Source of the DNA: Serratia proteamaculans | GTDB taxonomy: Bacteria > Pseudomonadota > Gammaproteobacteria > Enterobacterales > Enterobacteriaceae | Length of the DNA: 64,000 bases | Direction: 5' to 3' | NCBI RefSeq assembly: GCF_013337185.1 | Contig: NZ_SWDE01000003.1 | Span: 248,001-312,000, forward strand | In this document: positions 16,831 to 41,137 of the stretch, one piece after another | Numbering within the stretch: position 1 is the stretch's first letter | Layout of the letters: every line of letters begins with the position of its first letter | Notes under the pieces: model-generated | Databases searched by the model: none | The model's input: the letters and a program-made list of their open reading frames with translations, nothing else | Told to the model about the DNA's origin: nothing | Translations under genes and position numbers: made by a program

Positions 16831-17958
16831 TCATTCGACGCGGAAAGCGCCTTCGATCATTAGCTGCCGCTGCGGCGCGCTGTAGTCGATCAGAGAGTTT
16901 TTGCTGTTGGATTTTGCCAGCGTGACCGCCAGTTCATCGGCGGTAATCGGCAGGTCGTCCTGCCAGAAGCTGGCGATGGCGTTGCGGGTAATAAAGTCGA
17001 TCAGATAGCGCTCCGGGCTGTCCTGCTGGTCGGGAAACAGGCGGGCGGCAAGTTCGGCCATCAGGGCTCGTTGCTGCGGTTGGTCGCTTTGCGCCAGCAG
17101 TTCGAGGAACGGCAACAGCAGGCGGCCACAGACCTGGCCGTGGTGATAATCACGCAAGGCGCCTACCTCGCCGGCAATGCCGTGGATCACCCCCAAACCT
17201 GCGGCGCTCAGCGTCAGCCCGCCAAGGTAGGAGGCCTGCATAATATCCTCGCGCGCCTGGGCACTGCGGTTAAGTGCCGGCCAGGCGAGCAGGAAATGGC
17301 GGATGCCGGTCAGCGACATTTCGCGCGTCATGGCGTTGGCGGTTTTGGACAAGTAGGCTTCGAATAAATGGGTGAAGGCATCGATGGCACAATAGGCCAA
17401 TACCTTGTCCGGCGTACCTTCCAGCAGCTGCGGGTCCAGAATGGCGGTATGCGGCACAAAGTTGTTATGGCGCAGCGAGGCTTTCACCTTGCTCAATTGA
17501 GTGTCGGTGATCACCGCATTCTGGGTGACTTCGCTGCCGGTACCGGCGGTGGTCGGAATGGCGATTAGCGGCAGCGTGGCTCCGCTGATTTTGGTATCGC
17601 CGATCTTTTCCATATAGCGCAGGGTCGGTAGCGGGTGCTCCACCAGGGCGGCGAACGCTTTGGCGGCATCCAGCACGCTGCCACCGCCGATGGCGACGAC
17701 ACGCTGGGCTTTTCCGCGCCAGCGTGCCACCCAGGCGTCTATCTCCTGCGGTGAGGCTTCGTGGCTGACGATCTCGGTGCCGATCAACAGCGGTGTCAAC
17801 GCATCGGCCAGAGAAGAGTACACCGCGCCATTGAGGAATGAACGACAGCTAAACAGCAGCGTCGGCTGCGGGTCAGCGGTCAATAATGGGATCAGTTGGC
17901 TGATACTGCCGTGGCCGAACCAGGTATGGCGGTTGGCGATCGTCAGGCTGGTAGTCAT
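16831..17958 (-). CDS. Iron-containing alcohol dehydrogenase family protein
   Basis: 375-residue group III alcohol dehydrogenase. GGGSVLDAAKAFA binds NAD(P), followed by IPTTAGTGSEVTQNAV. Metal ligands are supplied by DAFTHLFEAYLS and by GVIHGIAGEVGALRDYHHGQVCG. The ATG at 17958 has GGAGAGA upstream; the longer frame to 18015 lacks a ribosome site. It is divergent from a LuxR-type gene, and the intervening region holds three palindromic boxes. The substrate is unknown; members of this family reduce or oxidise small alcohols, lactaldehyde, phosphonoacetaldehyde or hydroxy acids. Confidence 0.85.
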   Translation of the reverse strand: MTTSLTIANRHTWFGHGSISQLIPLLTADPQPTLLFSCRSFLNGAVYSSLADALTPLLIGTEIVSHEASPQEIDAWVARWRGKAQRVVAIGGGSVLDAAKAFAALVEHPLPTLRYMEKIGDTKISGATLPLIAIPTTAGTGSEVTQNAVITDTQLSKVKASLRHNNFVPHTAILDPQLLEGTPDKVLAYCAIDAFTHLFEAYLSKTANAMTREMSLTGIRHFLLAWPALNRSAQAREDIMQASYLGGLTLSAAGLGVIHGIAGEVGALRDYHHGQVCGRLLLPFLELLAQSDQPQQRALMAELAARLFPDQQDSPERYLIDFITRNAIASFWQDDLPITADELAVTLAKSNSKNSLIDYSAPQRQLMIEGAFRVE

Positions 17959-18042
17959 GGTCTCTCCTTGGCGCGCGAAAACCCCAGCATAATCCAGCCT
18001 CTGCGGCTGAACCACTGCTTTTCACTGCCTGAAAGGCATTCC

Positions 18043-18056
18043 GTTAATATATTAAC
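18043..18056. promoter_or_regulatory. TTAATATATTAA-type box (perfect palindrome)
   Basis: GTTAATATATTAAC is a perfect 14-base palindrome about 85 bases upstream of the alcohol dehydrogenase start. Near copies lie at 18196, 24996 and 30569, each upstream of amine or hpa genes. Confidence 0.5.
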
Positions 18057-18101
18057 TCTGGGCCTCTGGGCCAGACGGCAATAACCGGGCGAAGGTGTGA
18101 T

Positions 18102-18120
18102 TTGTTTAACATGTAAACAA
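18102..18120. promoter_or_regulatory. 19-base inverted repeat between the alcohol dehydrogenase and LuxR genes
   Basis: TTGTTTAACATGTAAACAA has perfect 7-base arms (TTGTTTA / TAAACAA) around a 5-base spacer. It is midway in the divergent promoter region, where an operator would control both genes. Confidence 0.5.
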
Positions 18121-18195: not shown

Positions 18196-18209
18196 GTTAA
18201 TTTATTAAT
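18196..18209. promoter_or_regulatory. Second TTAATATATTAA-type box, next to the LuxR start
   Basis: GTTAATTTATTAAT differs from the 18043 box at two positions and ends 15 bases before the LuxR-type start codon at 18225. Confidence 0.35.
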
Positions 18210-18224: not shown

Positions 18225-18983
18225 ATGAATATTCAGGTCGAAAGATTATCAGCAGTGATCGACGCGGTGGCGACGGCACGCTTCTATCCCAGCCTGCTGG
18301 CCTGGCTGGAAGGTTTCTTCGCCTTCGATAACGCCATTGTTTACGCCTTCGAACGTGGTCAGGCACCACGCTGCCTGATCAAAACCGAGAAAGAAAACAG
18401 TGACGCGGTCAATCAACTCTACCAGCAGGGCGCTTACCTGCAGGATCCGTTTTATCAGGCGCTGAACGGCGGGGGATGCGGTGAGGTATTGACCCTGCGC
18501 CAACTGGCGCCCTGTGGTTTTTATCATACGGATTATTATCGCAATTTTTATCGCAAGACCGGCTGGCATGATGAAGCCGGCGTGCTGCTGCCGCTGACGG
18601 CGGAACGCGGGCTGGGTGTGTTTTTTGGCTCGGCACGCCAGTCTGTGGGGGTTCGTTCCCCGCAACTGGCTGACCTGCGTGACGCATTGACGCTGTTGAA
18701 AAGCGTCGCTCGTCTGCATGGCGAAGTGCGGGTTGCGCCTGCCACGCCAGATCGGGTAACCGACAGTGCCGTACAGGCGCGTTATCTGTTGACCCCACGC
18801 GAGCGTGAGATTGTGGATCTGATCCTCGACGGCTGCGGTTCACAGCAGATCGCCGATCGGCTGTTTATCAGTCTGGGCACGGTAAAAAACCACCGCAAAA
18901 ACATCTACAGCAAGCTGGATATTGGTTCGCAGGCCGAACTGTTCAGCCTGTTGCTGGCCGCGCCGCTGCGTCGCAGCGCCTGA
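18225..18983 (+). CDS. LuxR-type transcriptional regulator
   Basis: 252 residues. The C-terminal 65 (LTPREREIVDLILDGCGSQQIADRLFISLGTVKNHRKNIYSKL) form a standard LuxR/GerE helix-turn-helix. The N-terminal sensor half has no acyl-homoserine-lactone-binding signature and no receiver Asp, so this is neither a typical quorum sensor nor a response regulator. It stands between an iron-dependent alcohol dehydrogenase and an FAD oxidase-cupin pair. A related LuxR-type gene is at 24151. A GCGAGGCGAAG ribosome site precedes the ATG. Confidence 0.87.
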   Translation: MNIQVERLSAVIDAVATARFYPSLLAWLEGFFAFDNAIVYAFERGQAPRCLIKTEKENSDAVNQLYQQGAYLQDPFYQALNGGGCGEVLTLRQLAPCGFYHTDYYRNFYRKTGWHDEAGVLLPLTAERGLGVFFGSARQSVGVRSPQLADLRDALTLLKSVARLHGEVRVAPATPDRVTDSAVQARYLLTPREREIVDLILDGCGSQQIADRLFISLGTVKNHRKNIYSKLDIGSQAELFSLLLAAPLRRSA

Positions 18984-19004
18984 GTGTTAATTATTTGTTG
19001 CGAA

Positions 19005-19020
19005 TGTCCCTAAGGGGACA
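19005..19020. promoter_or_regulatory. CTAAG-centred palindrome upstream of the FAD oxidase
   Basis: TGTCCCTAAGGGGACA has perfect 6-base arms around TAAG and lies 64 bases before the oxidase start. It shares its core with two palindromes at 25117 and 25242, and both regions lie beside LuxR-type genes. Confidence 0.5.
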
Positions 19021-19083
19021 TGGTGGCCGCCGGGCCGCTTGCTGATAATCCGATGACAGAGCTGGGTCATCGGGAGTGCGGCA

Positions 19084-20385
19084 GTGAATAATAATATCGA
19101 ATCCTTAACCTATTACGCAGCAACCAAAAAGTACGATCTGCGCTTCCCGACGCTGGAAGAGGATCTGGACGTTGACGTGGTGATCATCGGCGGTGGTTTC
19201 TCCGGCATCAATACCGCGCTGGAGTTGGCGGAGCGGGGTATCACCAATATCGCTATTCTGGAAGGCCGCCATTTGGGTTACGGCGGCACCGGACGCAATG
19301 GCGGGCAGGTGATGGCCGGCATCGGCCACGATCTGGAGAAAATCAAACGTCACGTCGGCCCGGCCGGGCTGGAAACCATCTTTAAAATCAGCAATCTCGG
19401 CGCCGGGATCATTCGCGAACGGATAAAAAAATACCAAATCGATGCCGATTTCTGCTTTGGCTACGGCTACCTCGGCAGCAATGCGCGCCAGGAGAAAACC
19501 TTGCGCAGTTGGCTGAAGGAATTCAAGGCGGTCTCGCCGGATGAAGAAATTGAACTCTATACCGGCGCTGAGGTGAAGCAGGTGGTGGGATCGGACGCCT
19601 ACACCTGTGCATTGAAACACATGGGCGGCGGCCACGTGCATTCGCTCAATCTGCTACTGGGCGAGGCCCAGGCGCTGAGTGGTTACGGCGTGAAGATCTT
19701 CGAAAACAGCAGTGTGATTGACGTGGAGTATGGCCAGCGCATCAAGGTGCGCACCGCCATGGGCTCAGTGCGGGCCAACAAGATGCTGTGGGCGTGTAAC
19801 GGTTTTCTCAACGGCATGGAGCCGTTCATCTACAACAAAACCATCAATACCTATGCCTTCCAACTGGCGACCGAACCTCTGTCTGACGAGCTGATCCGCC
19901 AGATCAGCCCGATCCGCGGGGCTTACAGCGACATCCGTCCGGTGATCGACTATTACCGGGTGACCAACGAAAACCGCCTGCTGTTCGGCAGCGCTACCCG
20001 ATTGATCGAATACATTCCGGCGGATCTCAAAGCCTGGAACCGTAACCTGATGCTGAAGGTGTTCCCCTATCTGCACGACGTCAAAATTGACCTGGCCTGG
20101 GGCGGGCCGCTGTGTTGCAGCGCCAACCTGTTCCCGCAGATCGGGACTTTGCCGCAGCACGACAACGTGTTCTACGTGCAGGGTTATTCCGGCTTTGGCG
20201 TAACCCCGAGCCATATCGTTTGCAAGGTGTTGGCGGAGGGCATGAGTGAAGGATCCGATCGATACGATCTGATGAGTTCGATCCCACACGTCAATATCTT
20301 CGGCAAGGACAAACTGCGGCGGGTGATGACCACCGCCGGCAAGGTGTGGCACCAGACATCCGGCTACTGGAAAGGCCGCCGTTAA
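19084..20385 (+). CDS. FAD-dependent amine/amino acid oxidoreductase (PuuB/DAO family)
   Basis: 433 residues of the D-amino-acid-oxidase fold: dinucleotide-binding VVIIGGGFSGINTALELAERG at about 32-52, GGTGRNGGQVMAGIGHD behind it, and the FAD-contacting C-terminal NVFYVQGYSGFGVTPSH. E. coli PuuB (gamma-glutamylputrescine oxidase) is the closest remembered type, but no puuA, puuC or puuD lies here, so the substrate is open. Start is GTG at 19084 with GGGAGTG upstream. A cupin gene follows 21 bases after the stop. Confidence 0.85.
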   Translation: MNNNIESLTYYAATKKYDLRFPTLEEDLDVDVVIIGGGFSGINTALELAERGITNIAILEGRHLGYGGTGRNGGQVMAGIGHDLEKIKRHVGPAGLETIFKISNLGAGIIRERIKKYQIDADFCFGYGYLGSNARQEKTLRSWLKEFKAVSPDEEIELYTGAEVKQVVGSDAYTCALKHMGGGHVHSLNLLLGEAQALSGYGVKIFENSSVIDVEYGQRIKVRTAMGSVRANKMLWACNGFLNGMEPFIYNKTINTYAFQLATEPLSDELIRQISPIRGAYSDIRPVIDYYRVTNENRLLFGSATRLIEYIPADLKAWNRNLMLKVFPYLHDVKIDLAWGGPLCCSANLFPQIGTLPQHDNVFYVQGYSGFGVTPSHIVCKVLAEGMSEGSDRYDLMSSIPHVNIFGKDKLRRVMTTAGKVWHQTSGYWKGRR

Positions 20386-20406
20386 TTGTTATCACAGGAG
20401 AGAGAA

Positions 20407-20772
20407 ATGAAACCATTACTGCTTAAACAACCGCTGCCTGAACTGCTGGACATTGGCAGCGTCAGCAACCTGGGTGCCACCGTGATCGCCGGTGAGCCGA
20501 ACGTCGGCGTGGCGGGCATTTTTGGGGAGGCGACCGACAACCTGAGCTGCGGTATCTTTAGCTGCACCCGTGGCATCTTCGTGATGGAGTATCCGTTCGC
20601 CGAACATGCCACGGTGTGGGAAGGCACGGCGACCCTGACCGACGAGAACACCGGTCAATCCGTAAAGTATCAGGCCGGTGACTCATGGTTTGTCGAAAAG
20701 GGGACCCCGGTGCGCTGGGAGATTACCTCCGATCGCTTTGTGAAACACTATCTGGCGATTGTCGAAGGCTGA
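20407..20772 (+). CDS. Small cupin protein (DUF861-type)
   Basis: 121-residue single-domain cupin with ECupin-like VMEYPFAEHATVWEGTATLT and AGDSWFVEKGTPVRWEI. Such DUF861 cupins accompany amine oxidases and ureidoglycine-type enzymes, but their roles are mostly undefined. An AGGAGAG ribosome site lies just before the ATG and the gene is co-directional with the FAD oxidase, so the two form one operon. Confidence 0.8.
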   Translation: MKPLLLKQPLPELLDIGSVSNLGATVIAGEPNVGVAGIFGEATDNLSCGIFSCTRGIFVMEYPFAEHATVWEGTATLTDENTGQSVKYQAGDSWFVEKGTPVRWEITSDRFVKHYLAIVEG

Positions 20773-20781
20773 TGCCGAACT

Positions 20782-20811: not shown

Positions 20812-21618
20812 CTAGCCCAGCACCCGCTCAATAAAATCGCCGATCCGCCTTAATATCTGATCCTTGTTGGTCTCGTTAAAGCTTTCATGCCGTCCGCCCG
20901 GATTGATCATGACTTCAAAATCTTTACCCTTCAGCAGGTTAATGGCGGTTTGTGATTGTGCCATTAGCACCAGCCGGTCGTCCTCGCCGTGTATCCACAG
21001 CGTGGGCAATGTGCCAAAGCCTGGCCCGGCGTTGATTTTGGCCTGCATCTGCTGGATGGCGTGCAATGTTGGGCGTTTGAATGGCCCATGCCACACCAGC
21101 GGATCGGCCTGATAGGCAATGCCGACCGCCGGATCGCGCGACAGGGTGGCGGTATCTAGCGGCTCATCGGGGATCTTCGGTAACGCCAGCAGATCGGAGA
21201 TCTGGGTTCTTTCGCCGATCAACGGGCCTGACAGCACCAGCGCACGCAGGTTATCGCCATAACGCTGAACGTAACGGGTGGCGATCATGCCGCCCATGGA
21301 ATGGCCTATGACCACCAGCGGCAGATCAGGGTGCAATGCCTTAAAATGCTCAACTGTGCGGTGAACGTCGTCGACTACAGCATCATAATCCTCAATCAAT
21401 ACGCGTTCACCCTGTGACAATCCATGGCCGAGATGGTCGGGGCCGAATACCCGTGCGCCCTGCGCCTCTAAGGTGCGCGCCACGTACTGATAGCGGCCCA
21501 GATGTTCGCCGTAACCGTGCACCAATAGCGCCAGAAAGCGCGGCTGGTCATGGCCCCAGTCATGCACTGCGATATCGCCCTGGCTGCCTTTGATAAAGCT
21601 GATTTTTTGTTCAGACAT
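20812..21618 (-). CDS. Alpha/beta hydrolase, monoacylglycerol-lipase-like
   Basis: 268 residues with the lipase-type nucleophile elbow GHSMGG (Ser at about 96), oxyanion-side LLVHGYGEHLGRY, acid HGEDDRLV and catalytic His in PGGRHESFNE. The HGxGEHxGRY and GPDHLGHGLSQGERV blocks are typical of Hydrolase_4 / monoacylglycerol lipase-like proteins. It lies downstream of the HDAC-family gene on the same strand with an 89-base gap, so co-transcription is possible. The natural ester is unknown. Confidence 0.83.
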   Translation of the reverse strand: MSEQKISFIKGSQGDIAVHDWGHDQPRFLALLVHGYGEHLGRYQYVARTLEAQGARVFGPDHLGHGLSQGERVLIEDYDAVVDDVHRTVEHFKALHPDLPLVVIGHSMGGMIATRYVQRYGDNLRALVLSGPLIGERTQISDLLALPKIPDEPLDTATLSRDPAVGIAYQADPLVWHGPFKRPTLHAIQQMQAKINAGPGFGTLPTLWIHGEDDRLVLMAQSQTAINLLKGKDFEVMINPGGRHESFNETNKDQILRRIGDFIERVLG

Positions 21619-21707: not shown

Positions 21708-22820
21708 TTACAGTTTGAATTGTTGTGCCAGCCGGTCGATAGCCTGACGCTGGAACTGATTAAAGGCCTCGCGTGGCTGCTGTTGCTGGATAAAGGCCAG
21801 CAGCGGATCCTGCACTTCGGTGCGGATGCCGCTGAGCTGCTCCATCACCGCCAGGCCGCAGAACGGCACGTAGGATTCGGCGTACCCCCCTTCGTGTACC
21901 ATCACCAGTTTGCCGTTGCACAGACGATCGGCGGCGTCCTGCACCAAAGCCGTCATGCTGCGAAAACTGTCGCTGTGCAACTGCATGCGTGCCAAGGGAT
22001 CGATGGCGTTGGCATCGTAGCCACAGGCGACAATGATCAGTTCCGGCTGGAATTGCTCCAGCGCCGGGATAACGATTTGGCGCATCGCATACAGGTAGCC
22101 GTCGTCACCGGCACCGGCCAGCAGCGGAATATTGATGTTATGGCCTTCACCCGCTCCGGCACCACGGTCTTGTTCACCGGAATACCCGGCGGGGAAGCAC
22201 CCGTCCTGATGCAGCGACAGCGTCAACACGTCGTCCCGCTGCCAGTAGATATGCTGGGTACCATTGCCGTGATGTACGTCCCAGTCGAGCACCGCGACTT
22301 TGCCCAGGCCGTATTTAGCCTTGGCTCGTTCGATGGCGATCGGGATATTGGCCAAAAAGCAAAAGCCCATCGACTGGTCCGGCAGGCAGTGGTGGCCGGG
22401 TGGGCGCGACAGCGCATAGGCGTTTTCCAGTTCGCCCTGCAGTACCGCTTCGACGGCGGCGCAGGCCAACCCGGCGGACAGTTTGGCGATTTCATAACTG
22501 CCCGGCCCCAGCGGGGCTTCCTCTCCCAGCATACCGCCGCCGTTGTCGCTTAACTGTTTGAAACGTTGCAGATAGTCGGCCGGGTGAATGCGCAGCAGGT
22601 CTTCATCGGTCGCCAGCTCGGCGCTCAGCAGTGTGAGCTGGCGCGACAGGCCGGACACGTCCATCAGGTTCTTCATCCTCCGTTTGGTCTCCGGTGACTC
22701 GGCATGGCCGGCCCCCGAAGGCGGTTGCACCCAGCCGCCGACCGGCAGTGTGGTGGCGTGCAGGCCGGTGCTGTGCCAGAAGCAGCGTTCATCAAACAAG
22801 AAACCGGTTTTTCTTTTCAC
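21708..22820 (-). CDS. Class II histone-deacetylase family amidohydrolase
   Basis: 370-residue zinc amidohydrolase of the HDAC/acetylpolyamine amidohydrolase superfamily. Active-site blocks are complete: RPPGHHC (tandem His), VAVLDWDVHHGNGTQ (zinc Asp and His), VACGYDANAIDPLARM (second zinc Asp) and VMVHEGGYAE. Bacterial members deacetylate acetylpolyamines or other small acetamides. It overlaps no gene but starts 13 bases after an MFS carrier stop, so uptake of an N-acyl compound and its deacylation are probably linked. The acyl substrate is not visible from sequence. Confidence 0.88.
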   Translation of the reverse strand: MKRKTGFLFDERCFWHSTGLHATTLPVGGWVQPPSGAGHAESPETKRRMKNLMDVSGLSRQLTLLSAELATDEDLLRIHPADYLQRFKQLSDNGGGMLGEEAPLGPGSYEIAKLSAGLACAAVEAVLQGELENAYALSRPPGHHCLPDQSMGFCFLANIPIAIERAKAKYGLGKVAVLDWDVHHGNGTQHIYWQRDDVLTLSLHQDGCFPAGYSGEQDRGAGAGEGHNINIPLLAGAGDDGYLYAMRQIVIPALEQFQPELIIVACGYDANAIDPLARMQLHSDSFRSMTALVQDAADRLCNGKLVMVHEGGYAESYVPFCGLAVMEQLSGIRTEVQDPLLAFIQQQQPREAFNQFQRQAIDRLAQQFKL

Positions 22821-22833: not shown

Positions 22834-24006
22834 TTAAACGGCGCGGCGTGCGCGCGGTGAAGCCAACAAAATCAACAGTAACGACAGCAAGGAGCAGCCC
22901 AGCGCACCGGCCAGCAGTGCGTCGAAACCGCCGAAAGATTCAATCAGATAACCGGCCAGCGTCGGGCCAATCGCCATCCCACCGCCAATCACCAGATTGA
23001 TGCTGTTCATCAACTTGCCGTTGTTATCCAGCCCGGCGACGCGAGCCAGAATAAACGGCAGTACAAAGGTCCAGGTGAATTTGAACAACACGGCGGCCAC
23101 CGCAAAGCGCAGCAGCAGGGGCTCACGAGTCAGCAGCGCGATGCCGGCGATCAACAAGCCATAGCTCAGCCAAATCAGTCGATTACCCGCGTGTCGCACC
23201 CGGATTAACGCCGCACCTCCGGCACCGGCGATGCCGAACAGCGTGGCCGTGGCCAGTATCTGTCCGCTATTGACCGGCGAAAGGCCGGCAGCGGCAGCGA
23301 TGCTGCCGATAAAGGTCCAGACCGCGCTCAGGCTGATGTAAAAAGTCAGTACCGCCAGCACGGCGAAGGCTTTACGCAGCCAGGGGGTTGTAGCGTGATG
23401 GGCGGCGGATGGCACCGGGTGAAACCCGCTGGGGAAGGCAGCGATCAGCGGCAGGCAGCACAGCATGATAGCCGCCAGGATCAGATAGACCGCCATCAGG
23501 CCAAAATGGGCAAACAATGCAGGCAGGACCAGCAGCCCGATCGTTCCCAGCACCAGTTGGCCCAGTACCCACAGGGCATAGACCCGGCTGGGGTTGGCGG
23601 TGCCGGCGGCGCAGGTGATGCACAGGATCATCAAGGTGCCGCCCGCCAGCGAAGCGACAAAGCGCAACCCCAGCAGCAGGCTGAAATCGTTGACCCAAGC
23701 CGAGGCCAGGTTACCGGCGATAAACATCCCTGCCGCCAGCGCTGCCACCCGGCGCCAGTTAACGCGACCAATCCACCACCAGGCGGGCAGCGTGGCCAGG
23801 CTCATCGCCCCCAGTTCGGTTGAAAACAGGTGGCCGACTTGCGCCGGGGTCAGCTGCCACTGGCTGGCCAGTTGTGCCGCTACCGCCGGTGCGGTCATCA
23901 GGATGCCAGGCGCAATGGCGGCAAAGATAATAATGGCGGTCAACAGCCGCGGCGGGCAGGGGAGGGCCGCCCCGGCTGCGGGTACGGAAACAGAATCACT
24001 GGACAT
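22834..24006 (-). CDS. MFS transporter
   Basis: 390 residues with about twelve hydrophobic helices (PRLLTAIIIFAAIAPGILMTAP first). It is a small MFS carrier lacking the classic sugar-porter signatures. The ATG at 24006 is preferred because GGAGATAA lies upstream; the longer frame to 24084 adds a non-hydrophobic stretch without a ribosome site. It precedes the HDAC-family gene in one transcript. The upstream region contains AATTAACGCGTTTAATT (24100-24116), an AT inverted repeat. Confidence 0.8.
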   Translation of the reverse strand: MSSDSVSVPAAGAALPCPPRLLTAIIIFAAIAPGILMTAPAVAAQLASQWQLTPAQVGHLFSTELGAMSLATLPAWWWIGRVNWRRVAALAAGMFIAGNLASAWVNDFSLLLGLRFVASLAGGTLMILCITCAAGTANPSRVYALWVLGQLVLGTIGLLVLPALFAHFGLMAVYLILAAIMLCCLPLIAAFPSGFHPVPSAAHHATTPWLRKAFAVLAVLTFYISLSAVWTFIGSIAAAAGLSPVNSGQILATATLFGIAGAGGAALIRVRHAGNRLIWLSYGLLIAGIALLTREPLLLRFAVAAVLFKFTWTFVLPFILARVAGLDNNGKLMNSINLVIGGGMAIGPTLAGYLIESFGGFDALLAGALGCSLLSLLLILLASPRARRAV

Positions 24007-24150
24007 AAAAATTATCTCCACCGGGCAAGTCTGGGTCAGATATATCCGCGGTACCCTATTTTGGGCAGGCGGAAACCGCGCCATTAATGAATGGCGAATA
24101 ATTAACGCGTTTAATTTATCGGTTATAAGCCATTGCTATGGCTTAATTTA

Positions 24151-24798
24151 TTAACCGTGCGCAATAAAGCTGCTGGCGACCAATTCGGTGCGATTGACGA
24201 CTTCGGTTTTGGCAAAAATATTACGCATATGGGTTTTTACTGTGGAAAGGGAAATACCCAATTTCAGTGCTATGCGTTTATTACTGGCCCCTTCGCGCAC
24301 CATATTGACGATCTCTTGCTCCTTGGCGGTCAGCAATTGGGCCTCCCCGCCGGGCAACAGATCGCGGGTCGCCAGTTCTATCAGCGGCATCACCGCCCGC
24401 AGGCGACCGCGTTCGAGTTCGGTAAACGGCGTATCGCGAATCAAAGACACCCCGGCGACAATGCGCTTACGCTGGCGGATAAATATCTCCGTCATATCGC
24501 GCATATTATTGGGCAGCATAAAGTCATGATAATAATGGCGGTTATTGTTGATTGCCGCCGGGCTCATCCCGACCATATTGATATCCTGCTGGTGGAAGTT
24601 GGCCGGTTTAAGCGGGTCAATCTGCTGGAAATGGTTCAAATACTGCTGATGGGTTTTATCGGAAATGTCATGCAAAATATAATGGTCTGGCCGCAGATCC
24701 GAGTTCACCAAATAAAATACCCCGGCGGATACCGGGATCAGGTGCGCAATGGTGTTCAGGCAGCTAGTGATAAAGGCATCGGATGGTGTAGTGTGCAT
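24151..24798 (-). CDS. LuxR-type regulator, possibly MoaR-like
   Basis: 215 residues ending in a LuxR/GerE helix-turn-helix (LTAKEQEIVNMVREGASNKRIALKLGISLSTVKTHMRNIFAKT). The N-terminal domain has no receiver or AHL signature. It faces a long (568-base) promoter region shared with the permease-SDR-MoaF operon. Klebsiella MoaR, the activator of the monoamine regulon, is likewise a short protein with a LuxR-type C terminus, so a similar role is plausible; that rests on size and context. It could equally control the MFS-HDAC genes downstream. Confidence 0.82.
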   Translation of the reverse strand: MHTTPSDAFITSCLNTIAHLIPVSAGVFYLVNSDLRPDHYILHDISDKTHQQYLNHFQQIDPLKPANFHQQDINMVGMSPAAINNNRHYYHDFMLPNNMRDMTEIFIRQRKRIVAGVSLIRDTPFTELERGRLRAVMPLIELATRDLLPGGEAQLLTAKEQEIVNMVREGASNKRIALKLGISLSTVKTHMRNIFAKTEVVNRTELVASSFIAHG

Positions 24799-24995
24799 GA
24801 TTCATTTCCTCCTTTTATCATTCAGACTGGAGAACTGCCGCGGTCAATATATGAACGATACAAGCATAGTTGTAGCAATTTCGCAACACAATAAAAACAT
24901 ATTAACAACGTGAGCCGGATTGCAATAAAATACATAAATAACAAGGTGACGGCCGGTGGTTGAAGTCCCAGGTGGTCATTGGGTGCCCATATTTC

Positions 24996-25009
24996 ATTAA
25001 TATATTAAC
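24996..25009. promoter_or_regulatory. TTAATATATTAA-type box upstream of the moa-like operon
   Basis: ATTAATATATTAAC matches the 18043 palindrome at 13 of 14 positions. It lies between the LuxR-type gene and the permease gene. Confidence 0.45.
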
Positions 25010-25116
25010 GAGTGTGCTGTGTCCTTCCCGCTGAATTTACAGCGATTTCCCATTTAGAGTGACGTCCCCACCACGAATCGTCCTTTTATCACCCCCGTTT
25101 AGCCGCCATCGGCGTC

Positions 25117-25132
25117 TCGTTCCTAAGAACGA
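25117..25132. promoter_or_regulatory. CTAAG palindrome, first copy before the permease
   Basis: TCGTTCCTAAGAACGA has exact 6-base arms (TCGTTC / GAACGA). It is followed by TAGAC, as the second copy is followed by TAGTC. Confidence 0.5.
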
Positions 25133-30582: not shown

Positions 30583-30622
30583 GAATGCCGGTTGTCATGT
30601 TCTGTCATTGAAAGGAGTTTGC

Positions 30623-33467: not shown

Positions 33468-33518
33468 GTTCGTCCCGGCACTGTTTCACGGAATCATTTT
33501 TGTTTCATGTGAGGTTGT

Positions 33519-34376
33519 ATGGGTAAGTTAGCTTTGGCCGCCAAGATTACGCATGTTCCATCGATGTATCTGTCGGAAATGCCAGGAAAAAACCACGGTT
33601 GCCGCCAGGCGGCGATCGACGGTCACAAAGAGATCAGCGCGCGCTGCCGTGAAATGGGCGTCGACACCATTATTGTGTTCGACACCCACTGGCTGGTGAA
33701 CAGCGCCTATCACATCAACTGCAGCCCGCATTTCGAAGGGTTGTATACCAGTAATGAACTGCCGCACTTTATCCGCGACATGACCTACGAATACGAAGGC
33801 AACCCGGCACTGGGTCAGTTGATTGCCGCTGAAGCCTGCAAACTCGGGGTTCGCGCCAAAGCGCATGAGATCCCTAGTCTGAAGCTGGAGTACGGCACGC
33901 TGGTGCCGATGCGATACATGAATAGCGACAAGCATTTCAAAGTGATCTCGATTTCGGCGTTTTGCACCGTACATGACTTTGCCGACAGCCGTCGGCTGGG
34001 TGAGGCGATCAAAACCGCGATTGAGAAATACGACGGCACGGTGGCGGTATTGGCCAGCGGTTCGCTTTCACACCGCTTTATCGACGACCAGCGTGCCGAA
34101 GAAGGCATGAACAGCTATACCCGCCAGTTTGACCAGCAGATGGACGAACGGGTGGTCAAGCTGTGGGAGGAAGGGCGCTTCCGCGAGTTTTGCGAAATGC
34201 TGCCGGAGTACGCCGACTACTGCTACGGCGAGGGCAACATGCATGACACCGTGATGCTGCTCGGCCTGCTGGGCTGGGACAAATATGACGGCAAGGTGGA
34301 GTTTGTTACCCCGCTGTTTGCCAGTTCCGGCACTGGGCAAGTCAATGCCATCTTCCCGCTGCCGGCTGAAGCCTGA
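33519..34376 (+). CDS. hpaD: 3,4-dihydroxyphenylacetate 2,3-dioxygenase (extradiol ring cleavage)
   Basis: 285-residue class III (LigB-type) extradiol dioxygenase that opens homoprotocatechuate. KITHVPSMYLSEMPGKNHGC near the N terminus, IVFDTHWLVNSAYHINC and SGSLSHRFIDD contribute iron-site and acid-base His residues. It is preceded by a 51-base gap with TGTGAGGT as the ribosome site. The family assignment and operon place are unambiguous. Confidence 0.94.
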   Translation: MGKLALAAKITHVPSMYLSEMPGKNHGCRQAAIDGHKEISARCREMGVDTIIVFDTHWLVNSAYHINCSPHFEGLYTSNELPHFIRDMTYEYEGNPALGQLIAAEACKLGVRAKAHEIPSLKLEYGTLVPMRYMNSDKHFKVISISAFCTVHDFADSRRLGEAIKTAIEKYDGTVAVLASGSLSHRFIDDQRAEEGMNSYTRQFDQQMDERVVKLWEEGRFREFCEMLPEYADYCYGEGNMHDTVMLLGLLGWDKYDGKVEFVTPLFASSGTGQVNAIFPLPAEA

Positions 34377-34385
34377 GGAGTCTCA

Positions 34386-34772
34386 ATGCCCCATTTTTAC
34401 GCTGAATGTACCGACAACATCCGCCGTGAGGCGGATTTGCCCGCGCTGTTCGCCAAGGTCAATCAGGCACTGGCGGACACCGGTATTTTCCCACTGGCCG
34501 GGGTGCGCAGCCGTGCCATCTGGCTCGATACCTGGCAGATGGCCGACGGCCAGCGGGACTACGCTTTTGTGCATATGACATTGAAGATCGGCCATGGCCG
34601 CAGTCTGGAAAGCCGTGAGCAGGTGGGGGCGATGCTGTTCACCCTGATCACCGAGCACTTCGCCGAACTGATGGCCAACCGCTTTCTGGCACTTTCGTTC
34701 GCCATGGAAGAGCTGCATCCGGTGCTGAACTACAAGCAAAACAATGTCCACGCGCTATTTCGGAAAGAGTAA
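34386..34772 (+). CDS. hpaF: 5-carboxymethyl-2-hydroxymuconate isomerase
   Basis: 128-residue trimeric isomerase of the tautomerase superfamily; the mature catalytic Pro follows the start Met ([13 protein letters not shown]). It converts CHM to its keto isomer before decarboxylation by HpaG. GAGGAGTC precedes the ATG, 9 bases after the hpaD stop. Confidence 0.93.
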
Positions 34773-34782
34773 GGGGCCGTCC

Positions 34783-35586
34783 ATGTTGAATAAAGAACTG
34801 GTGAGCCGTGCCGTGCAGCGCTTGCATCAGGCGGAGCAGAACCGCGAGCAGATCCGTGCGCTGTCGCTGGATCATCCCGAGATCACCATCGAAGACGCTT
34901 ACGCCATTCAGCGGCAGTGGGTCGCGCTGAAAATCGCCGAAGGCCGCACCTTGAAGGGCCATAAAATCGGCCTGACGTCACGCGCCATGCAGGTCAGTTC
35001 GCAAATCACCGAGCCGGATTTTGGCGCGCTGCTGGACGATATGTTTTTCAACGACGGCAGCGATATTCCGATCGATCGCTTTATCGTGCCGCGCGTCGAG
35101 GTTGAACTGGCATTTGTGCTGGCCAAGCCGCTGCGCGGACCGAACTGCACGCTGTTCGACGTCTACAACGCCACCGATTACATCATTCCGGCACTGGAGA
35201 TCATCGATGCGCGCAGCCATAACGTCGATCCGGAAACTCAGCGCCCGCGCAAGGTGTTCGACACTATCTCCGATAACGCCGCCAATGCCGGTGTGGTGAT
35301 GGGCGGCCGGCCGATTAAACCGGATGCGTTGGATCTGCGTTGGATCAGTGCGCTGCTATATCGAAACGGTGTGATCGAAGAATCTGGCGTGGCGGCGGCG
35401 GTGTTGAACCACCCGGCTAACGGCGTGGCCTGGCTGGCCAACAAGCTGTTCCCGTATGACGTGGAGCTGGAAGCCGGACAGGTGATCCTTGGCGGCTCCT
35501 TTACCCGGCCGGTGGCTGCACGACGCGGCGATACCTTCCATGCTGATTACGGCCCGATGGGCTGCATTAGCTGTCGGTTTGTTTGA
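34783..35586 (+). CDS. hpaH: 2-oxo-hept-4-ene-1,7-dioate hydratase
   Basis: 267 residues, the same length as E. coli Hpa[32 protein letters not shown] (Glu metal ligands) and [11 protein letters not shown] are hydratase signatures of the MhpD/HpcG family. The ATG at 34783 (AAGGGGCC upstream) is preferred over the earlier in-frame codon at 34744, which lies in hpaF. Confidence 0.93.
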
Positions 35587-35589
35587 TTT

Positions 35590-35690
35590 CCCCCCTCACC
35601 CTAACCCTCTCCCAGAGGGAGAGGGGATCGATGGAGTTGGATGAGACTGGATCCACCCCCTCTCCTTTGGGAGAGGGCCGGGGTGAGGGG
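35590..35690. repeat. CCCTCACCCTAACCCTCTCCC-type interspersed repeat
   Basis: The left end CCCCTCACCCTAACCCTCTC and right end GAGAGGGCCGGGGTGAGGGG are near-complementary, with inner CCCAGAGGG and CCTTTGGGAG arms. This long imperfect hairpin is a dispersed element known from many gamma-proteobacterial genomes. It sits inside the hpa operon between hpaH and hpaI, where it may affect message stability. Confidence 0.8.
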
Positions 35691-35710
35691 AAAACACCAA
35701 GGAGAACACA

Positions 35711-36505
35711 ATGTTAACCAACGCTTTCAAGCAGGCGCTGCAGGAAAAACGCCCGCAGATCGGCCTGTGGCTGGGGCTGTGCAGTAGCTACAGTGCAGAA
35801 CTGTTGGCCGGCTCCGGCTTTGACTGGCTGCTGATCGACGGCGAGCACGCGCCCAACAACGTGCAAACGGTGCTGGGCCAGTTGCAGGCGATCGCGCCTT
35901 ATCCGAGCCAGCCGGTGGTTCGCCCGGCGTGGAATGACGCGGTGCTGATCAAGCAACTGTTGGACGTCGGTGCCCAGACGCTGCTGATCCCAATGATTCA
36001 AAACGCCGAGCAGGCGCGTGAAGCGGTGCGTGCCACCCGTTATCCGCCGCATGGGATACGCGGAGTCGGCAGTGCATTGGCGCGTGCGTCACGCTGGAAT
36101 AGGGTACCGGATTATCTGCAACAGGCCGACGCGCAGATGTGCGTATTGGTGCAGATTGAAACTCGTGAGGCGGTGAAAAACCTGGACGAAATCCTGCAGG
36201 TGGCAGGCGTCGACGGGGTGTTTATCGGCCCGGCGGATCTCAGTGCCGACATGGGTTATGCCGGCAATCCCCAACAGCCGGAGGTGCAACGCACCATCGA
36301 CGATGCCATTGCGCGCATCAGCGCTGCCGGCAAGTCGCCGGGTATTCTGACCGCCAATCCTGAGCTGGCGCAGCATTATCTGGCGTCCGGCGCGCTGTTT
36401 GTCGCGGTAGGGGTGGATACCACCCTGTTGGCGCGGGCGGCGGAGTCCCTGGCCGGTCGCTTTAAGCAGCAACAGCCTCCCGAGCAATCCCCGGGCGTTT
36501 ATTAG
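35711..36505 (+). CDS. hpaI: 4-hydroxy-2-oxoheptane-1,7-dioate (HKHD) aldolase
   Basis: 264-residue class II, metal-dependent pyruvate aldolase giving pyruvate and succinic semialdehyde. [41 protein letters not shown] (metal Glu) and [15 protein letters not shown] (metal Asp) are family blocks. It follows the interspersed repeat, with AAGGAGA 5 bases upstream of the ATG. Confidence 0.95.
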
Positions 36506-36535
36506 GTTGCAGGACGCAATCTTACTGGAGACACC

Positions 36536-37906
36536 ATGAGCAACGTCGATTCGCTGCCGCCGGTCAACCCGGCGCAGCAACATAAAGCGTTAACCGCCAC
36601 CGAACAATCGGTGATTAAAAAGTTATTTCGGCGACTGATTATTTTCCTGTTTGTGCTGTTTGTTTTCTCTTTCCTCGACCGCATCAATATCGGTTTCGCC
36701 GGGCTAACCATGGGCAAGGATCTCGGCCTCAGCTCGACCATGTTCGGTCTGGCGGCGACCCTGTTCTACGTCACCTACGTGATTTTCGGTATTCCGAGCA
36801 ATATCATGCTGGGGATCGTCGGGGCGCGGCGCTGGATCGCCACCATCATGGTGTTGTGGGGCATCGCCTCAACCTGCACCCTGTTTGCCACCGGCCCAAC
36901 CAGTCTGTATGTGCTGCGGATGATTGTCGGCATTACCGAGGCCGGTTTCCTGCCGGGTATTCTGGTTTATCTCACCTACTGGTTCCCGGCGTTTTACCGC
37001 GCCAGGGCCAACGCGCTGTTTATGATCGCCATGCCGGTGACCATGGCGATCGGCTCGCTGGTGTCCGGCTATATTCTGGCGCTGGACGGGCTGATGAACC
37101 TCAAGGGCTGGCAATGGCTGTTCCTGATAGAGGGCATTCCTTCGGTGCTGTTGGGCGTGGTGGTGTGGTTCTACCTGGACGATACCCCGGCCAAGGCCAA
37201 GTGGCTGACCGACGAAGAAAAAACCAGTCTGAAAGCCATGATGGACGCCGACAAGCTGCAACTGGTGCAGCCCAATGGGCCAGGCAGTCATCGGGCGATG
37301 CAACAGCGCAACCTGTGGCGGGAAATCTTCACGCCGATCGTGTTGATGTACACGCTGGCCTATTTCTGCCTGACCAATACCCTGAGCGCCATTAACATCT
37401 GGACGCCGCAGATCCTGCAGAGTTTTAACCAGGGCAGCAGTAACATTGTGATCGGCATTTTGGCGGCGATCCCGCAGATCTGCACCATCGCCGGGATGAT
37501 CTGGTGGAGTAAACGCTCGGATCGGTTGCAGGAGCGAAAACACCACACCGCACTGCCGTATCTGTTTGCTGCTGCCGGTTGGCTGCTGGCCTCGGCGACC
37601 GATCACAGCATGATCCAACTGTTGGGGATCGTGATGGCTTCAGTGGGCTCATTCACCGCCATGGCCATCTTCTGGACCACGCCGGATCAGTCGATCAGCC
37701 TGGAGGCGCGGGCGATCGGGATCGCGGTGATCAATGCCACCGGCAATATAGGGTCGGCGGTCAGCCCGCTATTGATTGGCTGGTTCAAGGATCTGACCGG
37801 CAGCTTTAACTCCGGGCTGTACTTTGTTTCGGCACTGTTGATAGTGGGGGCGCTGATCGTCTGGCGTATTCCGATGCAGGGCTCGCGGCCACGGGCCACG
37901 CCATAA
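36536..37906 (+). CDS. hpaX: 4-hydroxyphenylacetate permease (MFS)
   Basis: 456-residue major facilitator with twelve helices. DRINIGFAGLTMGKDLGLSSTMFGLAATLFYVTYVIFGIPSN is the anion:cation symporter (ACS) family entry motif, and the length matches HpaX. It lies between hpaI and hpaA as in E. coli W. Confidence 0.92.
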   Translation: MSNVDSLPPVNPAQQHKALTATEQSVIKKLFRRLIIFLFVLFVFSFLDRINIGFAGLTMGKDLGLSSTMFGLAATLFYVTYVIFGIPSNIMLGIVGARRWIATIMVLWGIASTCTLFATGPTSLYVLRMIVGITEAGFLPGILVYLTYWFPAFYRARANALFMIAMPVTMAIGSLVSGYILALDGLMNLKGWQWLFLIEGIPSVLLGVVVWFYLDDTPAKAKWLTDEEKTSLKAMMDADKLQLVQPNGPGSHRAMQQRNLWREIFTPIVLMYTLAYFCLTNTLSAINIWTPQILQSFNQGSSNIVIGILAAIPQICTIAGMIWWSKRSDRLQERKHHTALPYLFAAAGWLLASATDHSMIQLLGIVMASVGSFTAMAIFWTTPDQSISLEARAIGIAVINATGNIGSAVSPLLIGWFKDLTGSFNSGLYFVSALLIVGALIVWRIPMQGSRPRATP

Positions 37907-37920
37907 TGGGGAAAGTTTGC

Positions 37921-37940
37921 GGGCGCGGCATGCTGCGCCC
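37921..37940. repeat. GGGCGC stem-loop repeat between hpaX and hpaA
   Basis: GGGCGCGGCATGCTGCGCCC is a near-perfect 20-base palindrome followed by TTT. It belongs to the stem-loop family also found at 9424, 29822, 41146 and 54435 and may end the hpaX message. Confidence 0.65.
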
Positions 37941-37965
37941 TTTACCGGGGGAATGAGGTCAATAG

Positions 37966-38862
37966 ATGCAGAAAAGTACCGGTTTTATCGCCAATATCGA
38001 TATCTGCAAAGAGTACGATGCGCGTTATGCCACCGATGAAGTGCATTACGAAACCTTTGCCGGGCTGGCGGCCTTTTTTGGTCGCGATATGCAGGTGCAC
38101 TGGCACGACCGTTACTTCCAGGTGCATTTTCTGGAGACCGGCAAGATTGAGCTACAGTTGGACAGCCAGCACTATTCGGTGCAGGCACCGCTGTTTATCC
38201 TCACGCCACCCTCGGTGCCGCATGCGTTCTTCACCGAGCCGGACAGTGACGGCCACGTGCTGACGGTGCGTCAGGAGTTGATCTGGCCGCTGCTGGAACG
38301 GCTGTACCCCGGCAGCAACCTGGCGCTGGACATGCCGGGTATTTGCCTGTCGATGGCGGACGCGCCGCAAGAGCTGACGGCGCTCAGCCATTACTGGGCG
38401 CTGATCCGCCGTGAATTCAGCCAGCGCCTAGCCGGTCGCGAACAAACGCTGGCGCTGCTGGCGCAGGCGGTGTTTACCCTGCTGTTACGCAATGCGTCGC
38501 TGGAGGACTCTGCCGCCAGTGGAGTACGTGGCGAGCTGAAATTATTCCAGCGTTTTAACAAGATGGTGGACGAGCGTTTCCGCGATCACCTGCCGGTGCC
38601 GGACTATGCCCAGGCGCTGGGCGTCACCGAGTCACGGCTCAATGACCTGTGTCGGCGTTTCGCCAACCAGCCCCCCAAACGTCTGATATTCGATCGCTTG
38701 CTGCGTGAAGCCAAACGTATGCTGCTGTTTAGCGCCTGCACGGTGCATGAAACCGCCTATAGCCTGGGTTTTAAGGATCCGGCTTATTTCGCCCGCTTTT
38801 TCAATCGGCTGGAAGGCTGTTCCCCCTCGAGCTACCGCGCCGCACAACACTCCCTTTCGTAA
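37966..38862 (+). CDS. hpaA: HpaA, AraC-type activator of hpaBC
   Basis: 298 residues: an N-terminal cupin with VHWHDRYFQVHFLETGKIEL and a C-terminal AraC helix-turn-helix (YAQALGVTESRLNDLCRRFANQPPKRLIFDRLLREAKRML, then GFKDPAYFARFFNRLEGCSPSSYR). In E. coli W HpaA activates hpaBC in response to 4-hydroxyphenylacetate. It immediately precedes hpaBC here. Confidence 0.93.
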   Translation: MQKSTGFIANIDICKEYDARYATDEVHYETFAGLAAFFGRDMQVHWHDRYFQVHFLETGKIELQLDSQHYSVQAPLFILTPPSVPHAFFTEPDSDGHVLTVRQELIWPLLERLYPGSNLALDMPGICLSMADAPQELTALSHYWALIRREFSQRLAGREQTLALLAQAVFTLLLRNASLEDSAASGVRGELKLFQRFNKMVDERFRDHLPVPDYAQALGVTESRLNDLCRRFANQPPKRLIFDRLLREAKRMLLFSACTVHETAYSLGFKDPAYFARFFNRLEGCSPSSYRAAQHSLS

Positions 38863-39041
38863 GCTGGATCACAGTTTGCAGCGATAGTGGCCAAGCTGCC
38901 TGAAAAGTACCGGCGATTGCCGCAAAAGTCTCTTCTCGAAATCGGCGTTGGGGGCTTCAATTAAGCAACCAAAAGAAAACATTATTTTAACAAGTGGCCG
39001 ACTCCACGGCCCATAAAATACCGATTACGAGGAAGACTTAA

Positions 39042-40604
39042 ATGAAACCTGAAGACTTTCGTGCTGACAACAAACGCCCGTTCGCCGGTGACGAATACCT
39101 GAAGAGTTTGCAGGACGGCCGCGAAATTTATATCTATGGCGAGCGGGTGAAGGACGTTACCACTCATCCGGCATTCCGCAACGCAGCGGCCTCGGTCGGC
39201 CAGCTGTACGACGCGTTGCACGATCCGGTTAGCCAGGACAGTCTGTGCTGGGGCACCGATACCGGCAACGGCGGCTACACCCACAAATTCTTCCGCTACG
39301 CCCGCAGCCCGGATGAGTTGCGTCAACAGCGTGACGCCATCGCCGACTGGTCGCGTCAGAGCTACGGCTGGATGGGGCGCACCCCGGACTACAAGGCGGC
39401 CTTCGGATCTGCGTTGGGTGCTAACCCGGAGTTTTACGGCCAGTTCGCCGACAACGCGCGCCACTGGTACAAACGCATTCAGGAAACTGGTCTGTATTTT
39501 AACCACGCCATCGTCAACCCGCCGATCGACCGCCACAAGCCGGTCAACGAAGTGAAAGACGTATTTATTCAGGTGGAAAAGGAAACCGACGCCGGCATTA
39601 TTGTCAGCGGTGCCAAGGTGGTCGCGACCAACTCGGCGCTGACCCACTACAACTTTATCGGCTTCGGCTCGGCTCAGGTGATGGGCGACAACCCGGACTT
39701 TGCGCTGATGTTTGTCGCACCTATGGACGCGGAAGGGGTGAAGTTGATCTCTCGCGCCTCCTATGAACTGGTCGCCGGTGCCACCGGATCGCCATTCGAT
39801 TATCCGCTTTCGAGCCGTTTTGATGAGAACGATGCGATCCTGATTATGGATCACGTGCTGATCCCATGGGAAAACGTGCTGATCTACCGCGATTTCGATC
39901 GCTGCCGCCGCTGGAGCACCGAGGGCGGTTTCGCCCGCTTGTTCCCACTGCAGGCCTGTGTTCGTCTGGCGGTGAAGATGGACTTTATTACCGCGCTGCT
40001 GCAAAAGAGCCTGGCCTGTACCGGCGTGCTGGAGTTCCGTGGCGTTCAGGCCGATCTCGGCGAAGTGGTGGCCTGGCGCAATCTGTTCTGGTCGCTGACC
40101 GATGCGATGTGCGCCGAGGCCACCAAGTGGGAAAACGGTGCCTATCTACCGGACTCCGCCGCGCTGCAGACGTATCGCGTGATGGCGCCGATGGCCTACG
40201 CCAAGGTGAAGAACATCATCGAAAAGAATGTCACCAGCGGCCTGATTTATCTGCCGTCCAGCGTGCGTGACATGAATAACCCGGAAATCGACAAATATCT
40301 GTCCCGCTATGTACGTGGCTCCAACGGGATGGATCACGTCGAACGCATCAAGATCCTCAAACTGATGTGGGATGCGATCGGCAGTGAGTTCGGCGGCCGT
40401 CACGAACTGTATGAGATCAACTACGCCGGCAGCCAGGACGAGATCCGCCTGCAATGCCTGCGTCAGGCGCAGGGATCCGGCACCATGGGCAAGATGATGG
40501 AAATGGTCGACAAATGCCTGTCCGACTATGACCAACACGGCTGGAAAGTGCCGCATCTGCATAACAATGACGATATTAATCAGTTGGATAAACTGCTTAA
40601 GTGA
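39042..40604 (+). CDS. hpaB: 4-hydroxyphenylacetate 3-monooxygenase, oxygenase component
   Basis: 520-residue FADH2-dependent hydroxylase that converts 4-hydroxyphenylacetate to homoprotocatechuate. MKPEDFRADNKRPFAGDEYLKSLQDGREIYIYGERVKDVT is the HpaB N terminus, and GNGGYTHKFFRYARS and ATKWENGAYLPD are conserved. The 179-base leader separates it from hpaA and is the likely HpaA-controlled promoter. Confidence 0.95.
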   Translation: MKPEDFRADNKRPFAGDEYLKSLQDGREIYIYGERVKDVTTHPAFRNAAASVGQLYDALHDPVSQDSLCWGTDTGNGGYTHKFFRYARSPDELRQQRDAIADWSRQSYGWMGRTPDYKAAFGSALGANPEFYGQFADNARHWYKRIQETGLYFNHAIVNPPIDRHKPVNEVKDVFIQVEKETDAGIIVSGAKVVATNSALTHYNFIGFGSAQVMGDNPDFALMFVAPMDAEGVKLISRASYELVAGATGSPFDYPLSSRFDENDAILIMDHVLIPWENVLIYRDFDRCRRWSTEGGFARLFPLQACVRLAVKMDFITALLQKSLACTGVLEFRGVQADLGEVVAWRNLFWSLTDAMCAEATKWENGAYLPDSAALQTYRVMAPMAYAKVKNIIEKNVTSGLIYLPSSVRDMNNPEIDKYLSRYVRGSNGMDHVERIKILKLMWDAIGSEFGGRHELYEINYAGSQDEIRLQCLRQAQGSGTMGKMMEMVDKCLSDYDQHGWKVPHLHNNDDINQLDKLLK

Positions 40605-40621
40605 TCCGCGAGGAGGTTTGT

Positions 40622-41137
40622 ATGTCTCAGGAAAATGAACACCGTCTGCTGTTTCGCGACGCCATGGCCAGCCTGTCTGCCGCGGTGAATATCGTCACCA
40701 CCGACGGCCCGGCGGGACGCTGCGGTATAACCGCCACCGCGGTGTGCTCGGTGACCGATACGCCGCCGACGCTGCTGGTGTGCATTAACCGCAACAGCGC
40801 GATGAACCCGGTTTTCCAGGCCAATCAACGGCTGTGCGTCAACGTGTTGAATCATGAGCAGGAGCTGATGGCACGCCACTTTGCCGGAATGACCGAGGTC
40901 AGTATGGAAGAGCGTTTCCGTCTGGATGACTGGCAGAGTGGCGCACTGGGGCAGCCGGTATTGCGTAACACGCTGGCCAGCCTGGAAGGGGAGATCGAGC
41001 AGATCCAAAGCATCGGCACCCATCAGGTGTATCTGGTGCAGATCCGCCAGATCGTGGTCAGTGCGGCCGGTAACGGCCTGATCTACTTCAAGCGCAACTT
41101 CCATCCGGTGATGCACGAAAGGCTGGCTCTGGCCTGA
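40622..41137 (+). CDS. hpaC: 4-hydroxyphenylacetate 3-monooxygenase, flavin reductase component
   Basis: 171-residue NADH:FAD reductase supplying reduced flavin to HpaB. FRDAMASLSAAVNIVTTDGPAGRCGITATAVCSVTDTPPTLLVC is the flavin-reductase fold signature. The ATG at 40622 has GCGAGGAGG upstream; an upstream in-frame codon at 40601 overlaps hpaB. A GC-rich hairpin follows the stop. Confidence 0.93.
   Translation: MSQENEHRLLFRDAMASLSAAVNIVTTDGPAGRCGITATAVCSVTDTPPTLLVCINRNSAMNPVFQANQRLCVNVLNHEQELMARHFAGMTEVSMEERFRLDDWQSGALGQPVLRNTLASLEGEIEQIQSIGTHQVYLVQIRQIVVSAAGNGLIYFKRNFHPVMHERLALA

Follow-up and report, generated by a model that had tools for sequence, protein, structure and literature searches.

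The question raised by this stretch of DNA, a 64,000-nucleotide window (contig 13, 248001-312000) of the 5.28 Mb genome of Serratia proteamaculans, is whether a block of amine-type genes and the adjoining hpa genes for 4-hydroxyphenylacetate degradation, together 24 kb at positions 16831-41137, form one catabolic unit. A first-pass annotation, made from the letters alone, had proposed that they do, by a novel route from acetylated or free aromatic amines to central metabolism. Family scans of the open reading frames found all the genes it had named where it had placed them, and added several it had not listed: two LuxR regulators, an alpha/beta hydrolase, a DUF3156 protein and HpaR. We consider it fairly probable that the 24 kb is an aromatic-monoamine catabolic locus, in which hpa is joined to the Serratia version of the monoamine regulon known from Klebsiella (moaR, moaEF and their companion genes). 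The comparison suggests that aromatic amines reach central metabolism by a single route common to both blocks, with a flavin enzyme replacing the usual copper oxidase. Gene content, conservation, HpaR-type sites and published co-expression are the observed parts of this reading; every substrate we infer.

Most of the cluster is the known Klebsiella monoamine regulon, which the first-pass annotation had not recognised, and the novelty is not supported in the form proposed: the locus is a new arrangement of a known regulon, not a route new from nothing. MoaR has been described as the positive regulator of atsBA, maoCA, moaEF and tyn, governing the response to tyramine, dopamine, octopamine or norepinephrine (as summarised in PMC6813237, citing Murooka 1996). 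In K. aerogenes NCTC10006, a feaB_2 aldehyde dehydrogenase on the opposite strand is followed by a DAO-family oxidase (annotated puuB_3), a small protein where the window has its cupin, an APC permease, another small protein where it has DUF3156, an XRE regulator, hdaH and an MFS carrier; next come a 'Monoamine regulon transcriptional regulator', atsB, atsA (annotated as two pieces), MoaE and MoaF. In the window, an Fe-type (iron-containing) alcohol dehydrogenase (Fe-ADH; 16831-18015, minus strand; PF00465, E 1.7e-34) is divergent from the regulator LuxR1 (18225-18983; PF00196), which is followed on the plus strand by a DAO-family FAD oxidase (19084-20385; PF01266, E 2.3e-51) and, immediately 3' of it, an EutQ-like cupin (20386-20772; PF05899). 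The minus strand then carries a lysophospholipase-like alpha/beta hydrolase (20812-21618; PF12146), possibly outside the pathway, an HDAC-type deacetylase (amidohydrolase; 21708-22820; PF00850) with an MFS carrier (22834-24084; PF07690), and LuxR2, the MoaR-type regulator (24151-24798; PF00196). On the plus strand, an APC-family permease (25367-26860; PF13520) heads the moaEF operon, in which a DUF3156 protein with a provisional start (26781-27422; PF11354, E 4.5e-49), a moaE-type SDR (27415-28197; assigned by family scan and by its MoaF-adjacent relatives), MoaF (28208-29005; PF17409 and PF10703) and a second SDR (SDR2; 29010-29792; family scan) follow with overlapping or nearly touching frames, the whole tight operon converging on hpaR. 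The gap between LuxR1 and the DAO gene also contains, at 19004-19021, a perfect 7-base inverted repeat (ATGTCCC-4 bases-GGGACAT), a candidate LuxR1 site.

The window thus has a MoaR (LuxR-type) regulator and adjacent moaE and moaF, flanked, as in Klebsiella, by DAO, APC, hdaH and MFS genes. The HDAC is 85% identical to hdaH and the DAO 73% to puuB_3, and LuxR2 is 66% identical over 140 aa to the K. aerogenes monoamine regulator (149 aa as annotated). The moaE-type SDR is 73-74% identical to its MoaF-adjacent counterpart in the Raoultella, Klebsiella and Enterobacter loci L047, L048, L050 and L051, and relatives of the cupin and the DUF3156 protein occupy those positions in loci of these three genera; MoaF itself shares 98% identity with the MoaF in a Serratia quinivorans record. 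Unlike the Klebsiella regulon, the window lacks atsBA, has gained a second SDR and adjoins hpa. A search of 30 genomes of the genus, its own included, gave no copper amine oxidase (no match to PF01179), as the first-pass annotation had said of the locus.

Neither atsA nor atsB had a match within the window. Eight of the 17 named Serratia loci have both genes, placed between moaR and the APC operon. In six of these eight, copies of the palindrome TCGTTCYTAAGRACGA (with two mismatches at most) flank atsBA at a spacing of about 3 kb, the remaining two (L043 and L075) having one copy each. The two copies in the window, at 25117-25132 and 25242-25257, are 125 bp apart with no gene between them, which fits a loss of atsBA here. 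In K. aerogenes the palindrome recurs about 80 bp upstream of the DAO gene with two mismatches, and about 140 bp upstream of atsB with one mismatch on one strand and two on the other. We infer that TCGTTCYTAAGRACGA is the MoaR site, and the copies in the window are candidates for it.

A different palindrome is common to the amine genes and hpa. HpaR of Yersinia pseudotuberculosis has been footprinted on the hpaG1 promoter, with a core of TTAA-N4-TTAA similar to that of Escherichia coli W (PMC7180172). This core occurs six times in the 64 kb against 0.36 expected, a number reached in none of 100 shuffles, and all six copies fall within the 24 kb: two between Fe-ADH and LuxR1 (18044-18055 and 18197-18208), one before the MFS gene, overlapping the end of LuxR2 (24143), one in the divergent moaR/APC promoter (24993-25012) and two in the hpaR/hpaG1 promoter (within 30374-30585). 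The hpa clusters of E. coli W and Yersinia have the same pathway genes, HpaA, HpaR and two hpaR/hpaG1 sites; the window differs from them in carrying HpaR-type sites at amine genes too. All 17 named Serratia loci have the pair of hpaR/hpaG1 sites and 16 have the moaR site, no LuxR2 being found in the exception (L045); outside these 17, the moaR core is missing from L025 (genome G017). The moaR site persists away from hpa: in seven loci of Klebsiella, Raoultella, Enterobacter and Pluralibacter types (L018, L047, L048, L050, L051, L053 and L096), where no hpa gene was seen in the flanks examined, the core occupies the gap beside moaR. The monoamine genes of Serratia adjoin hpa and probably share a switch with it, HpaR being the predicted protein at these sites.

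Published transcriptomes of Serratia plymuthica A153 offer a view of the two blocks together. In RNA-seq of an ipdc deletion, hpa genes were lowered 2.9-6.2-fold, and the same deletion lowered RS12455 (LuxR, -3.22), RS12465 (hypothetical, -2.01), RS12475 (class II HDAC, -2.54), RS12485 (LuxR, -3.87) and RS12500 (SDR, -2.71), according to the tabulated data of PMC10364317. When locus tags are counted backwards by fives from hpaR (RS12515), with S. plymuthica NBRC 102599 (L038), which shares the gene order of the window, as the template, these correspond by order and name, rather than by sequence, to LuxR1, cupin, HDAC, MoaR and MoaE. Five of the 13 left-block genes therefore fall with hpa, for which the chance is about 1e-8 to 5e-8 (hypergeometric, with 5000 genes assumed), two figures being given because the paper's total of differentially expressed genes disagrees with the sum of its up and down counts. 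In sections 22 and 23 of the paper the authors discuss hpa and paa without remark on the left block (PMC10364317).

The synteny of the joint cluster is conserved within the genus, and the blocks lie apart in other genomes. In the 30 genomes searched, HpaB was found in 26, a close MoaF in 25, HDAC above its cut-off in 22 and a close DAO in 25; MoaF lies 10.3-11.9 kb from HpaB in 25 of the 26 HpaB-bearing genomes, and 7.1-12.6 kb from DAO in the same 25. The exception is G005, in which Fe-ADH and the hydrolase adjoin hpa (L022); MoaF, HDAC and a close DAO are absent from this genome, and the 40 kb examined gave no match to APC, DUF3156 or LuxR2. Four small genomes (G025-G028) gave no match to MoaF, HpaB or HDAC. 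Across 295 genomes of the order, including its own, MoaF passed its cut-off in six (three with at least 160 bits, three at 24-27 bits) and HpaB-2 was found in 11. One of these, G109 from another genus, has hpa and MoaF 647 kb apart and a Klebsiella arrangement (L018); together with hpa lacking MoaF in G005, this shows that the blocks are separable. The first-pass annotation would have given up its proposal if the blocks were separable and responded to unrelated substrates, and only the former came about: they do not look like responders to unrelated substrates. We also counted neighbours at 55% identity or more within the flanks of 64 named MoaF loci, with thresholds chosen after seeing the data. 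In the 47 non-Serratia loci, DAO occurs near MoaF in 14, HDAC in 12, moaE in 25, SDR2 in 15 and APC in 7, and none of the five in 14. SDR2 was found in Burkholderiales and Massilia loci, and at 55% identity not in the flanks of L047, L048, L050, L051, L053 and L056. Relatives of hpaD (at least 55%) stand beside MoaF in three of the 47, from Paraburkholderia ferrariae (L059), Burkholderia guangdongensis (L060) and Psychromonas arctica (L076), so that a joint amine/ring-cleavage neighbourhood exists outside the genus too. The recurring left module, the genus-wide synteny with hpa, the shared HpaR-type sites and the published co-expression thus speak for the joint unit, and a single amine-to-ring-cleavage unit is well supported by comparison and by the predicted regulatory sites.

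How much of the left block belongs to this unit is a separate matter. It is possible, if doubtful, that only the moaR-moaEF operon takes part in the amine/hpa system, and that Fe-ADH, the alpha/beta hydrolase, HDAC and MFS stand beside it but do other work, for example protein deacetylation. This would agree with three genomes (G002, G003 and G017) that keep MoaF and DAO with no HDAC over the cut-off, and with Fe-ADH and the hydrolase staying beside hpa in the MoaF-less G005; however, HDAC and MFS recur beside MoaF in 12 of the 47 non-Serratia loci, and HDAC falls with hpa in the tabulated RNA-seq.

If the whole block is an aromatic-monoamine locus, its genes could be arranged in one pathway. 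The APC and MFS carriers would import free and N-acetylated phenolic amines, and the HDAC-type enzyme would deacetylate the acetylated ones. This HDAC matches KpHdaH (PDB 9glb), a class 1b bacterial deacylase, over its whole length with 727.7 bits and retains the motifs RPPGHH, DWDVHHG, GYDAN and EGGY; aligned with the residues given in PMC11532494, it has the tandem His, Asp-His-Asp and Tyr motifs of class 1b HDAC-type enzymes. The word 'tyramine' occurs nowhere in the main text of the KpHdaH paper (PMC11532494). The FAD oxidase with its cupin, as a candidate substitute for copper TynA, would convert the amine to an arylacetaldehyde; it is a well-conserved protein, 432-434 residues long and 64-73% identical to relatives outside Serratia in the alignment, and its predicted model (mean predicted local distance difference test score, pLDDT, 65) is too weak for reading the pocket. 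An aldehyde dehydrogenase encoded elsewhere would then give 4-hydroxyphenylacetate. The first-pass annotation had reported no phenylacetaldehyde dehydrogenase, which holds for the 24 kb, where none of FeaB type was found, and not for the genome, which likely has one: at G000:C1, around 2138125-2140569, a FeaR gene (403.8 bits, cut-off 199) adjoins an aldehyde dehydrogenase that scores best against the phenylacetaldehyde dehydrogenase family (633.5 bits, under the cut-off of 850), about 6 kb from an indolepyruvate-decarboxylase-like gene that is below its own cut-off. This pair resembles the tynA-feaB-feaR set of E. coli as described in PMC4640556, except that no tynA-type copper oxidase was found here. 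In other loci a FeaB-like dehydrogenase lies directly 3' of DAO-cupin (L026, 64%; L066, 54%, cut by the locus end) or 3' of DAO (L073, 54%).

The hpaBC and hpaDEFGHI products would complete the degradation, and here the first-pass annotation's complete 4-hydroxyphenylacetate pathway is borne out, at 29842-41137. The MarR-type repressor gene hpaR (29842-30297, minus strand; PF01047) was matched to MarR-type Pfam models only, and its reading frame is listed as 29842-30351, with the likely ATG start at 30297 judged by eye. It adjoins hpaG1, after which G2, E, D, F, H, I, X, A, B and C follow on the plus strand (30581-41137), each above its NCBIfam cut-off (TIGR02305 for hpaG1, TIGR02303 for hpaG2, and the equivalogs TIGR02299, TIGR02298, NF011605, TIGR02312, TIGR02311, TIGR02332, TIGR02297, TIGR02310 and TIGR02296 for hpaE to hpaC). 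The catabolic set hpaBC, hpaG1G2, E, D, F, H and I is thus accompanied by X, A and R. HpaR would hold three targets repressed until acids of the pathway build up, namely hpa, the LuxR1-DAO promoter, and moaR together with the moaEF operon, and MoaR would activate through its putative palindrome. MoaE, MoaF and the second SDR would probably process a side-chain-modified amine, for example a beta-hydroxylated one.

Several observations weigh against this reading. HpaB and a high-scoring MoaF occur together in only two of the 295 genomes of the order (its own and G109) and are adjacent in one, the nine other HpaB genomes having no MoaF. Eight of the 13 left-block genes, DAO and MoaF among them, are missing from the RNA-seq table. 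The HpaR-type site at 24143 was seen in the window and in none of the other Serratia loci, a moaR-like gene of Prodigiosinella (L056) lacks the site, and purified A153 HpaR was reported to bind neither 4HPA (4-hydroxyphenylacetate) nor 3,4HPA (3,4-dihydroxyphenylacetate) by calorimetry (PMC10364317). KpHdaH is described as a robust deacetylase whose deletion had little effect on growth on the media tried (PMC11532494). The best NCBIfam match of the DAO is L-pipecolate oxidase, far below the cut-off, and its solved relatives in the PDB are distant sarcosine-oxidase types; an aliphatic or gamma-glutamylated amine is therefore a possible substrate. Along these lines, the left block may be devoted to a different amine (a polyamine, acetylpolyamine or gamma-glutamylated amine) and be no more than a neighbour of hpa, which we judge unlikely. 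The puuB_3 annotation of the K. aerogenes DAO, the polyamine and acetylpolyamine deacetylases among HDAC-type relatives, the 647 kb between hpa and MoaF in G109, and the presence of hpa in the MoaF-less G005 would suit such a role, but the HpaR-type sites stand at moaR even where no hpa gene lies in the flanks examined, the block is co-expressed with hpa, arylsulfatase genes lie behind the same promoter in relatives, and the regulator is annotated as a monoamine one.

The assignment of the sites to HpaR can be judged further with a longer motif. It was built from the window's own sites, so that its perfect matches there prove nothing; independent testing comes from the published core and from the relatives. 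At one mismatch or fewer it gives 2-5 sites per genome in 26 of the 30 genomes and none with a reversed control, and the moaR site is present in 19 of 20 MoaF-bearing genomes (21 genomes listed, positions judged by eye) and missing in G017. That the palindromes are bound by another regulator, such as another MarR protein, and that HpaR has no control of the block seems improbable to us: the link is one of similarity to the published core, which has one further copy away from the moa genes in L096 and scattered copies in the AT-rich loci L058, L069, L071, L072, L076 and L077, away from these genes in such loci as L058, L071, L072, L076 and L077, and is missing from the Burkholderiales hpa loci L059 and L060, but it stands in the hpaR/hpaG1 gap of every Enterobacterales locus examined that covers this gap, and the longer motif has few sites per genome and none at the moa position in the MoaF-less G005. 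One-mismatch sites of this type also occur apart from hpa: one precedes a GMC oxidoreductase gene by about 76 bases (L118:4501-6201; G000:C13, around 197501-199201), and most of the 21 genomes with listed sites have similar ones, which lie on a different contig from hpa or tens of kb away from it.

To our knowledge, MoaF has been known since the 1990s only as a tyramine-linked protein. Its C-terminal domain has the fold of phenolic acid decarboxylases, in which a Gly-Arg-Trp (G-R-W) motif provides a catalytic Arg. Unlike these enzymes (PadC), MoaF carries an extra N-terminal domain and reads G-L-A there, with Leu in the Arg column. A much bolder reading, which we hold to be very unlikely, makes MoaF a phenol-activating lyase that would expel the benzylic hydroxyl of octopamine/synephrine-type amines via a quinone-methide-like intermediate, giving 4-hydroxyphenylacetaldehyde for hpa, and the whole block a copper-free catecholamine/octopamine catabolon switched by HpaR. 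A second MoaF gene is found in 17 of the 30 genus genomes, and all 17 loci around it (L016, L017 and L097-L111) have an HpaR-type site with zero or one mismatch; in L017 it follows an MFS carrier that has the site about 70 bases before it, and is followed by an L-lactate-dehydrogenase-type gene on the other strand.

The surroundings of the 24 kb appear to have other functions. An ordinary AmpH-type gene outside the pathway (41764-42906) lies after hpaC on the opposite strand, and further right SDR, fumarylacetoacetate-hydrolase-type and enolase-superfamily genes (44061-46989) perhaps form a sugar-acid pathway. To the left, an S58 peptidase, a permease, a methylmalonate-semialdehyde-type dehydrogenase and an AptA aminotransferase (9464-14820) make up a separate cluster, perhaps for beta-amino acids.

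If the 24 kb is an aromatic-monoamine locus joined to hpa, one repressor of an aromatic-acid pathway would also govern how the amines feeding that pathway are taken up, deacetylated and oxidised, and this link between HpaR and amines would persist in genomes where a long distance separates the two blocks. A bacterial HDAC homologue with a solved structure and an unsettled substrate would acquire a natural role, and for bacteria that gave no match to a copper amine oxidase the flavin enzyme would be named as the amine oxidase. MoaF would gain a testable chemistry. We know of no sequence for the octopamine and synephrine dehydratase activities; the lyase reading of MoaF, if true, would provide one.

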